Origin: Desulfolutivibrio sulfoxidireducens
GTDB lineage: Bacteria; Desulfobacterota; Desulfovibrionia; Desulfovibrionales; Desulfovibrionaceae
Length of the DNA stretch: 64,000 nt
NCBI RefSeq assembly: GCF_013376475.1
Contig: NZ_CP045508.1
Span: 4,066,001-4,130,000 of the forward strand
Reading direction: 5' to 3'
A program made the position numbers and the translations under genes. The notes beneath the pieces were generated by a model. That model saw nothing but the letters and a program-made list of their open reading frames with translations. It did no database searches and had not been told where the DNA came from. Positions 556 to 54,964 of this stretch are shown here, one piece after another. The first letter of the stretch is position 1; each line of letters opens with the position of its first letter.

Positions 556-650
556 GCCTACCTCCATACCGGGGCTGCCGCCCCCGCCCAACCGGGGCTG
601 CCGCCCCGGACCCCGCCCGGGGGGAATCATTCCCCCCGGACCCCCTGACT

Positions 651-697
651 CCGTTGGGTCTTGTCCCGGCGCTTCGCGCCGGGACAAGACCCAACGG
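651..697. repeat. Variable palindrome P1 of repeat copy 1
   Basis: A perfect inverted repeat with 22-base arms (651-672 and 676-697) around a 3-base TTC loop. The centre reads GGCGCTTCGCGCC; the outer arm (CCGTTGGGTCTTGTCC) is not shared by the other copies. There is no following T-tract, so it is not a typical intrinsic terminator. Confidence 0.85.
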
Positions 698-765
698 GGA
701 TCAAGGGATACGGAGGCAACCATGTCCTCCGGGCAGGACTGACGAGACGGGCGACACGAATTTCG

Positions 766-812
766 CCGGCGGGGTTTGATCGGGCGCGAAGCGCACGTTC
801 AAACCCCGCCGG
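766..812. repeat. Variable palindrome P2 of repeat copy 1
   Basis: An inverted repeat with 14-base perfect arms (766-779, 799-812) around a 19-base loop that itself contains the GCGC-GAA-GCGC core, the reverse complement of the core in P1. The outer arm sequence differs from the matching palindrome at 53331-53377. Confidence 0.8.
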
Positions 813-880
813 CGTGATCGGGGTGCGGGGGCCAAAGGCCCCTGCTGGGGGGGGTGTGGGGGGGCAAAGCCCACCACGCC

Positions 881-34175: not shown

Positions 34176-34187
34176 GACGACCGGGGA

Positions 34188-34431
34188 GGGGGCTTCACCC
34201 CCTCCCCGGACCCCACCCCCGCCCGGGGGAAATCATTTCCCCCGGACCCCCTGGCATCCGGGCGTCATCCGCCGAAGCTTCGCTTCGGCGGATGACGCCC
34301 GGAAAGCCAGAATGACCGGAGAACGTGATTGCTCCCGAGCGTGGACGCGAAGCGCGAAAAAGTTTTTTGAAGGGGGGTCCAGGGGGGAAACTTTTTTTCA
34401 AAAAAGTTTCCCCCCTGGCCGCCGGAGGCAA
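34188..34431. repeat. Composite intergenic repeat, copy 2
   Basis: Between the acyl-CoA dehydrogenase and ETF-QO. Order on plus: a GGGGGCTTCACCCCC stem, block A (CGGGGGAAATCATTTCCCCC then GGACCCCCTGG), palindrome P1 (34258-34302, 21-base perfect arms around TTC), a linker with CTCCCGAGCGTGGACGCGAAGCGCG, and a terminal hairpin at 34382-34415. P1 arms differ from those of copies 1, 3 and 4. The ribosome site GGAGG of ETF-QO lies right at its end. Confidence 0.8.
34382..34415. terminator. Long hairpin just before ETF-QO
   Basis: Perfect 16-base arms (GGGGGGAAACTTTTTT and complement) with a 2-base loop, ending 20 bases before the ETF-QO start codon. It could end or attenuate transcription from the acyl-CoA dehydrogenase. 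The same type of hairpin is at 44946-44983. Confidence 0.6.
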
Positions 34432-34435
34432 TACC

Positions 34436-44741: not shown

Positions 44742-44985
44742 TCGGGGCTGCCGCCCCGAACCCCGCATCGGGGCGTCGCCCCGAACCCCGCCCGGGGGAA
44801 ATCATTTCCCCCGGACCCCCTGATTTCCGGGCGGGCGTCCCGGTCGCGTCGCGCCCGGGACGCCCGCCCGGAAGCCAAGGGTACGGAGGGACTGGTCTCT
44901 CCCGAGCGCGGACGCGAAGCGCGCCGAAATTTTCGAAGGGGGGGTCCAGGGGGGAAACCTTTTAAAAAAGGTTTCCCCCCTGGCC
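44742..44985. repeat. Composite intergenic repeat, copy 3
   Basis: Between purN and aroC. On plus: two GGGGCxxxGCCCC stems, block A (CGGGGGAAATCATTTCCCCC then GGACCCCCTGA), palindrome P1 (44826-44872, 18-base perfect arms TCCGGGCGGGCGTCCCGG around an 11-base loop), a linker with GGGTACGGAGGGACTGG and GAGCGCGGACGCGAAGCGCG, and a terminal hairpin (44946-44983, CCAGGGGGGAAACC...GGTTTCCCCCCTGG). It is closest in layout to copy 2. Confidence 0.8.
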
Positions 44986-53267: not shown

Positions 53268-53505
53268 GGCGCCGGGGGGCTCCGCCCCCCATACCCCCGG
53301 CAGGGGCGTCATGCCCCCGCACCCCGACACGCGGCGGTCCTGTGTTCGCGCACCGCGCGCGGACACAGGACCGCCGCGAAATCGGGCAGCATGGCCCGAA
53401 GCCCTGGCCGGAGGGCATGATTGCCTCCGTATCCCGTGATTTCCGGCGGTTTTTCTCCGGCGCAAAGCGCCGGGAAAAAAACCGCCGGAGTCAGGGGGTC
53501 CGGGG
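53268..53505. repeat. Composite intergenic repeat, copy 4, left part (reverse orientation)
   Basis: Reading on plus: block C (GGGGGGCTCCGCCCCCC, CAGGGGCGTCATGCCCCCGCACCCCG), palindrome P2 (53331-53377, 15-base perfect arms, 17-base loop), a linker with CATGATTGCCTCCGTATCCC, palindrome P1 (53443-53488, about 21-base arms around AAA) and the first part of block A (AGTCAGGGGGTCCGGGGGGG). It is copy 1 in reverse, but the P1 and P2 arms are different sequences. Block A is interrupted by the IS element and resumes at 54922. Confidence 0.85.
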
Positions 53506-53509
53506 GGGA
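53506..53509 (+). other. Target-site duplication, left (GGGA)
   Basis: GGGA at the left edge of the IS element, repeated at 54918-54921. Removing the IS and one copy restores block A as in copy 1, with one extra G. Confidence 0.6.
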
Positions 53510-53589
53510 TGTATGAACCGGGTACATAGGTGACAGTTTAGACCGGGAACATGGGTAACAGTTTCCGATAAGGGTATCGGAGGTGTCCG

Positions 53590-54801
53590 ATGCCTTGGAA
53601 ACAGGTTAATCCCATGGATGAGCGTGTTCGATTCGTCGTTGAAACACAACTTGGCATGAAATCGATCCAGCAGCTTTGCCATGACTATGGAATCAGTCGC
53701 AAGACAGGCTATAAGTGGTTAGAAAGGCGTGCTAAAGGTGGTTTTGAAGCCTGTATGGATCAAAGTCGAGCGCCTCATTCATGTCCACATAAGACCAGTG
53801 ACAAGATAGAAGCACGGCTAATTGAGTTGCGCAACATCTATCCAAAGTGGGGTCCGAAAAAGCTTGTTGCGCTTCTTGAAATGGAGATGAAGGAAAGCCA
53901 CGTCATCTCAGCGAGCACCGCAGGAGATATATTGTATCGCCATGGCTTGGTAGTTCCCAGAAAAGTAAAAAAACGAAATTACGGGAAGACGAAAACCCAT
54001 TTTTTGAGGGAGCCAACATCTGCCAACGATGTATGGGCTGTGGATTATAAAGGATGGTTCCGGACCAAAGACCATTTCGTCTGCCATCCATTAACCGTGA
54101 CAGATTTGCATAGTCGATATGTCTTGTGGTGCAAGGGGCACAGAAAACAATCGGCCTCTGAAGTAGAAAAAAATTTTGAAACAATCTTCACTACGTATGG
54201 AGTGCCACTGGCACTCAGAATGGACAATGGTTCCCCGTTTGGCTCAACTGGACCAGGAGGGCTGACATATTTAAGTCTGAGATGGATGCAGATTGGAATT
54301 GATATAGAATTCATAACTCCTGGGAAGCCGCAACAAAACGGAAGCCATGAGCGCATGCATAGAACATTGAAGTTTGAAGCGATCTTGCCACCAGCACGTG
54401 ATATATATGAACAGCAGTATCGTTTTGACGCCTGGAGAGAACGATTTAATACGCTTCGTCCCCATGAATCCTTGCAGCAGAAAACGCCAGAATCGGTATA
54501 TACCCCATCGCCTCGGCGTTATACTGGTAGAAAGGGATTCACATATCCAGGTTACTTTGAGGTCCGGTCCGTTCGAAAAGACGGCATGTTTTTTTGGAAG
54601 GGGACACTGCGTTTTGTCGGCGAGGCATTCGGAAAAGAACAGATCGGCCTGGTCCGTGACCACGAAGATCGATGGCTTGTGTTTGCCGGAGAGATGCTTG
54701 TGGGGTGGTTTCATGAATCGTTGTCGGGAGTTAGACCCCTGAGCGAATGGGAATCATTTTGTGGCCGAGTTGGGCGGCGGCCTCCGACGGGCTCTTTGTA
54801 G
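53590..54801 (+). CDS. IS481-family transposase
   Basis: A 403-residue DDE transposase. The N-terminal helix-turn-helix is SIQQLCHDYGISRKTGYKWLERR; a second DNA-binding segment is YPKWGPKKLVALL. The catalytic core has Asp152 (VWAVDYKGWF), Asp212 (LRMDNGSPF) and Glu254 (NGSHERMHRTLK). All three acids are intact and the frame is unbroken, so the protein could be active. GGAGGT lies 6 bases before the ATG. Codon use is AT-richer than neighbouring genes. Confidence 0.93.
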   Translation: MPWKQVNPMDERVRFVVETQLGMKSIQQLCHDYGISRKTGYKWLERRAKGGFEACMDQSRAPHSCPHKTSDKIEARLIELRNIYPKWGPKKLVALLEMEMKESHVISASTAGDILYRHGLVVPRKVKKRNYGKTKTHFLREPTSANDVWAVDYKGWFRTKDHFVCHPLTVTDLHSRYVLWCKGHRKQSASEVEKNFETIFTTYGVPLALRMDNGSPFGSTGPGGLTYLSLRWMQIGIDIEFITPGKPQQNGSHERMHRTLKFEAILPPARDIYEQQYRFDAWRERFNTLRPHESLQQKTPESVYTPSPRRYTGRKGFTYPGYFEVRSVRKDGMFFWKGTLRFVGEAFGKEQIGLVRDHEDRWLVFAGEMLVGWFHESLSGVRPLSEWESFCGRVGRRPPTGSL

Positions 54802-54830
54802 GCCCATTCTCGGCCGCCGCCCAACTCGGC
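54764..54830. terminator. Long inverted repeat at the transposase stop
   Basis: Perfect 19-base arms (GCCGAGTTGGGCGGCGGCC and complement) around a 29-base loop, overlapping the last transposase codons. It probably ends transposase mRNA and may shield the gene from outside transcription. Confidence 0.6.
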
Positions 54831-54917
54831 TTGGCAGCCCCGTTGGCTGGGGGAAAAACAACCGGAGTGTCACCTATGTACCCGGTTTAAAGTGTTACCC
54901 ATGTTCCCGGTTGCACA

Positions 54918-54960
54918 GGGAATGATTCCCCCCGGGCGGGGTCCGGGGCGGCAGCCCCGG
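54918..54960. repeat. Composite repeat copy 4, right part (rest of block A)
   Basis: Begins with GGGA, the right target duplication, and continues AATGATTCCCCCCGGGCGGGG then TCCGGGGCGGCAGCCCCGG, the reverse complement of the outer part of copy 1. Confidence 0.85.
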
Positions 54961-54964
54961 GGCA

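Follow-up and report, generated by a model that had tools for sequence, protein, structure and literature searches.

The window analysed here, a 64-kb stretch of Desulfolutivibrio sulfoxidireducens DNA (positions 4066001-4130000 of a one-contig genome of 4,155,851 bases), contains four copies of a composite intergenic repeat that can be read directly in the sequence. The original prediction had placed copies at these four positions, and all were found there. The neighbours of copy 1 are ahcY and a dciA-like gene, those of copy 4 a glycosyltransferase gene and sod, and copy 3 adjoins aroC. On the strand of block A the modules follow each other in the order A1 hairpin, GGACCCC, A2 palindrome, ACCCCCTGACTCC, P1 stem, a sequence resembling GGAAATCA, and a linker with a small hairpin. 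After the linker copies 1 and 4 carry P2 plus block C. Copies 2 and 3 have instead T, a conserved and A/T-tipped hairpin that is an alternative to P2 and C.

Modules of the four copies

In copy 1, on the forward strand, the A1 hairpin (592..609) and the A2 palindrome (617..639, with the sequence CCGGGGGGAATCATTCCCCCCGG) are followed by the variable P1 stem (651..697, arms of 22 bp without mismatches), the linker (698..763, containing a small CGGAGG/CCTCCG hairpin), the variable P2 stem (764..814, arms of 24 bp with 2 mismatches) and block C (815..874, two small hairpins). Copy 2, on the same strand, has a variant form of the A1 hairpin (34181..34209), the A2 palindrome (34223..34245), a P1 stem (34257..34303, arms of 22 bp without mismatches) and the T hairpin (34379..34418). 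As at 34379-34435, the T hairpin of many copies is followed by CCGCCGGAGGC, which in copy 2 stands immediately 5' of a start codon and resembles a ribosome-binding site. Copy 3, also forward, comprises the A2 palindrome (44792..44814), a P1 stem (44825..44873, arms of 23 bp with 1 mismatch) and the T hairpin (44946..44983).

Copy 4 lies on the reverse strand, with block C at 53268..53329, the P2 stem at 53330..53378 (arms of 22 bp, 1 mismatch), the P1 stem at 53442..53489 (arms of 19 bp, 2 mismatches) and a portion of A2 at 53498..53509; the remaining A2 and A1 are found at 54918..54961. What had been described as a copy spanning 53268-54960 is indeed present, but as a single element split within A2 by a 1408-bp IS481-like insertion sequence (53510..54917, forward strand) that is foreign to it. 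The insertion encodes a transposase (53590-54801) with Pfam rve and IS481 domains, is flanked by GGGA on both sides, and scores 207.6 with the NCBIfam IS481 model, below the cut-off of 224. The IS481-like element favours A2 as a target. Among the seven IS481-like copies counted in this genome (six full-length and one split in two pieces, two more short pieces being left out), six sit inside an A2 palindrome (L236, L237, L238, L240, L241, L242/L243), and the exception (L239) is in a different G-rich site.

Copy number and position relative to genes

Collecting the copies genome-wide, as the original prediction had proposed, gave at least 51 in the 4.16 Mb genome, with arms that are paired yet different. 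This number is a lower bound: of 129 first-look candidates, the A query scored 40. A 19-base pattern from the end of A, with up to 3 mismatches, has 58 matches genome-wide against 3 for the reversed control. In the own-genome DNA examined there are 67 strand-wise A2 matches, 49 of which pass a strict hairpin score, while a looser rule yields 51 copies with a stem of at least 14 bp, perfect in 35; since P1 was located as a hairpin beside A2, these counts under-represent decayed or lost stems and favour well-paired copies. Blocks occurring independently everywhere would speak against a composite element. They are partly separate: P1 is lacking beside 15 of 66 A2-like palindromes, and 9 of 30 T hairpins lie more than 330 bp from any A2.

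Block A was searched in 39 genomes, i.e. the own genome, two of the same genus, 20 of the same family and 16 of the same order. It is present in nine of them, every one within the family, and the exact A motif is found in records of Desulfovibrionaceae MAGs and Solidesulfovibrio magneticus, among others. The two same-genus genomes, hereafter G001 and G002, have the A-end pattern at 14 and 40 places, respectively (controls 3 and 4). In other genera of the family A-like hairpins linked by GGACCCC recur, and long P1-like stems are found at scattered loci only; P1 is therefore described here for the own genus only.

The repeats are found at the ends of genes. Each of the 49 distinct copies for which both neighbouring genes were called adjoins at least one gene 3' end (the neighbour table holds 51 distinct copies, two of them at stretch edges, after removal of 419358 and 749415); in 15 the neighbours are convergent and in 34 tandem. 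A tally by gaps of at least 150 bp, in which copies are assigned to gaps differently, gives 1 divergent gap out of 47 with an element and 26 out of 95 without (p=0.00016). Both tallies rely on genes called with a home-made program, which was seeded on GC by codon position. There is no fixed orientation of the element relative to genes among the 34 tandem copies, in which the A side is toward the gene start in 21 and the other side in 13.

Such a location, together with the share of convergent gaps (15/47 with an element vs 14/95 without, p=0.026), is what one would expect if the copies were plain bidirectional transcription terminators sharing sequence by chance. We find this improbable. A scan for intrinsic terminators (a GC stem followed by a T run) came up empty in copy 1 and gave a single weak site in copy 2 (shuffle mean 0.7); the T run of the T hairpin is at its tip, not after the stem; and termination does not need shared A and T sequences. 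Classical terminators occur at 4 of 63 element 3' ends and at 17 of 136 others, a non-significant difference (p=0.22). Simple terminators were thus set aside, copies 1 and 2 being unlike standard intrinsic terminators. From the position of the copies we infer that the hairpin chain probably acts at transcript 3' ends or delimits neighbouring genes, in either orientation.

Pairing and change of the stem arms

P1 stems of the own genome are 16-33 bp long and nearly perfect. An inclusive set of 51 stems has 1142 Watson-Crick pairs out of 1166, the others being 5 G.T, 10 A.C and 9 of other kinds; 35 stems are free of mismatches, 12 have a single one and 4 have two to four. In a stricter set, also of 51, from which two second-strand A2 entries were removed, 1159 of 1176 pairs are Watson-Crick, and in the relatives the count is 688 of 706 over 33 copies. 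The own-genome hairpin that follows P1, missing in 10 of 51 copies, is likewise nearly perfect (245/251 pairs in P2, 541/547 in T, with a few stems mis-sorted by the rule separating the two). A control for wobble pairs in tRNAs gave 44 Watson-Crick and 2 G.U pairs, from two tRNAs, too few to use.

The arms had been described as varying from copy to copy while remaining paired, and this is what we observe. Over 50 copies, pairing is 98.4% between the arms of the same stem and 48.1% between arms swapped between copies; in the middle 12 pairs the values are 98.7% and 39.1% for own arms and arms of different copies. The proposed covariation check on P1 agrees, since mutual information is above all 1000 shuffles at 17 of 17 stem positions in the own genome. 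In the relatives it is above all shuffles at 16 of 17, position 1 being reached by 39 of 1000 shuffles. In the own genome, knowing one arm is enough to predict the other without error at positions 10-17, counted from the apex. The arms do differ between copies, as was claimed, but they are not wholly unrelated: the stems conserve the foot TCCGG and the apex GGCGC, and many arms are of common descent.

Loci shared with G002 show how the stems change in place. Among the 30 copies of G001 and G002, 13, all from G002, are placed at gene ends that bear a copy in the own genome, nine by both flanks and four by a single flank (L211, L225, L210, L140); the remaining 17, without a matching own-genome stretch in the DNA compared, count neither as present nor as absent. 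At these 13 loci 637 of 675 aligned bases agree in A (94%), and 430 of 684 in the 60-base segment that follows P1. In P1, 196 pairs are unchanged, 55 are changed on both sides (38 transversions and 17 transitions), 8 are one-sided or non-Watson-Crick, and 48 pairs are inserted or deleted. The nine both-flank loci give the corresponding counts of 140, 34, 4 and 30; in A, 440 of their 467 bases agree. Over 46 bases, identity of A is 93.6% at shared loci and 80.9% among all cross-genome pairs; among copies of the own genome it is 80.2%, and among those of G001/G002 83.6%. Tested by these identities, homogenisation of A between copies was not found. The higher identity at shared loci than among cross-genome pairs indicates that copies were inherited in place without A being homogenised across them. 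Recent mobility is unnecessary for many copies, because the 13 elements are at the same gene ends in G002 and locus-specific A variants are inherited.

This bears on the earlier idea of a mobile element with a cassette-like stem, here taken as REPIN-like or MITE-like, whose stem would be swapped upon movement or by recombination between copies. Copies are many in each genome. Furthermore, ten copies (nine from G002 and one from G001) have a common P1 stem type, TGATATC..TGGCGTTTCC, which is carried by no own-genome stem. At three loci, two of them placed by both flanks, it lies where the own genome has a different stem, as would be expected from the swapping between relatives that had been proposed as a test. 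Junctions in G002 that join the flanks of two own-genome copies also speak for recombination at the elements. Yet, the 13 copies kept in place in G002, and identities of A of 93.6% at shared loci against 80.2% within the own genome, show copies that are old and not homogenised. In addition, no intact RAYT (Y1_Tnp, PF01797) is found in the own genome, G001 or G002: the own genome has two adjacent pieces resembling one broken gene, and the two others have none, for which reason REPs driven by a RAYT were set aside. The idea of a mobile element with a cassette stem is partly supported, but we hold it to be unlikely as an account of the family. Exchange of whole stems or whole elements between copies probably also occurs. 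The G002 elements joining flanks from two different own-genome elements are at L140, L226 and L228, L140 being both a rearrangement junction and one of the shared loci placed by one flank; such rearrangements seem to have their breakpoints in the repeats.

Stems that differ little from each other and the loops between the arms give further information. Close stems (at most 15% of pairs different) show 45 both-side changes for 6 non-Watson-Crick pairs. Transversions make up 19 of these 45 changes, and transversions cannot go via a G.U step. Among the closest stems there are 9 transitions and 4 transversions. Loops occur together with their reverse complements 92 times in the own genome, where the shuffle mean is 52 and none of 5000 position shuffles reaches this value; an excess over position shuffles is also seen in the relatives (p=0.0026). 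These loop tallies still contain 419358 and 749415, which are second-strand A2 readings of loci already counted. Copies 3268938 and 3294016, for example, have identical 5' arms and the loops TTT and AAA, and inverted loops are found in 7 of 49 close pairs, which are not independent. Loop counts are near balance for AAA/TTT (9 and 8) and GTC/GAC (10 and 6), whereas TTC (15) exceeds GAA (4). In contrast, rRNA loops are strongly biased, GAAA being 99 times commoner than its reverse complement according to a section of PMC8794818.

Origin of the matched arms and related repeats

The idea that a stem is made by copying one arm is the best supported of those put forward originally. P1 and P2 are near-perfect DNA palindromes. 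When a mutation strikes one arm, template switching in the course of replication (quasipalindrome correction) would usually either erase it or copy it to the opposite arm. Both arms would then drift together, the loop would sometimes emerge inverted, and exchange between copies would sometimes swap a whole stem, while A1, A2 and T stay nearly constant, through selection or otherwise. We infer arm copying at the DNA level because wobble pairs are rare on both strands, both-side changes include transversions, insertions and deletions are paired, and loops occur with their reverse complements. The transversions, the insertions in both arms and the inversion of loops favour such copying over slow compensation in an RNA. 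Arm homogenisation and inversion of the loop or spacer are marks of template switching in the portions of PMC8794818 and PMC8604942 consulted, and the present family has arm identity, both-side changes and loop inversion. Some observations limit this conclusion: the lead of transitions among the closest stems, 9 to 4, is also what a path through G.U would give, no more than 7 of 49 close pairs have inverted loops, TTC loops exceed GAA loops 15 to 4, replacement of a whole stem can mimic a both-side change, and template switching alone would not lead one to expect a conserved apex and foot. We give about even chances to the explanation as a whole, i.e. a largely vertical family of hairpin chains whose arms are equalised by template switching and which has a role at gene ends.

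One might instead suppose that natural selection keeps the stem as a hairpin of DNA or RNA and that ordinary two-step compensatory mutation, without arm copying, accounts for the paired changes. The persistence of copies at corresponding gene ends of another species, the conservation of foot, apex and flanks, and the same 9 to 4 ratio would all fit. But this reading must accommodate the near absence of G.U on either strand, the 19 transversions among 45 close-stem changes, the pairs inserted or deleted in both arms, and the lack of a clearly preferred loop on the sense strand of the 34 tandem copies; we consider it possible, at perhaps half the weight of template switching. The strand-specific structured RNA that had also been suggested is disfavoured by this lack of a sense-strand preference, by the variable orientation and by the absence of Rfam matches at the gathering threshold in the 64-kb window, and known Rfam families were set aside. 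Least probable of all, in our opinion, is a dedicated process that actively diversifies P1 and P2, renewing the two arms of each stem together and leaving A and T unchanged, so that each gene end has its own stem. If it existed, it might prevent recombination between copies, or mark them.

Arm copying by template switching, which we favour, relates the family to homogenised inverted repeats and quasipalindromes with equal arms, compensatory changes and an inverted loop or spacer. The cases treated in the parts of PMC8794818 and PMC8604942 consulted are rRNA and yeast genes, whereas here we have a multicopy intergenic family with constant flanks; the likeness is one of mechanism, not of family. 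REP and REPIN sequences are also repeated extragenic palindromes with conserved ends and a less conserved spacer that still forms a hairpin, by compensatory changes in REPINs, as excerpts of PMC3116915 and PMC3733652 describe them. Our elements likewise have conserved ends around a spacer that keeps its hairpin. They differ in their P1 stems, which at 16-33 bp are much longer than the 5-13 bp of the GTAG and CGTC repeats in the same excerpts, in that several hairpins are strung together in each copy, and in that stems change in place at shared loci. The GTAG/CGTC foot tag is missing from the consensus (flanks CCCCTGACTCC and GGAAATCA, foot TCCGG), which was scored in place of single copies.

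BIME, ERIC and other intergenic mosaic repeats are mosaics of palindromic modules in gaps beside genes, and an insertion sequence prefers them. The present repeat resembles them as a palindromic mosaic near genes targeted by an insertion sequence, and differs by its other sequences, its other host group and its variable stems within constant flanks. Among the papers listed from an open-access library, titles and opening lines of abstracts revealed no earlier description of such a Desulfovibrio repeat, and a term search for Desulfovibrio found nothing in the searchable text of PMC3733652 or of the survey of stem-loop families PMC2267715. The family is new, but its pattern and the copying process have precedents in REPIN spacers and in template-switch homogenisation. 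This repeat of a sulphate-reducing bacterium provides a good natural setting to study a known arm-copying process: with at least 51 long palindromes, some having counterparts at the same sites in a sister species, the rate of arm equalisation in nature would become measurable, and the set could separate mutation from selection. It also carries a warning, as covariation in a repeat family, usually taken as proof of a structured RNA, can originate at the DNA level.

Two minor observations concern the relatives. In a genome of another genus (G007), hairpin chains linked by GGACCCC/GGGGTCC contain A2-like palindromes that vary between copies and remain paired (L142, L150, L157, L162). In the draft genome G001 several contigs stop inside or just after P1 (L180, L182, L184, L186, L206), as if the assembly broke there.
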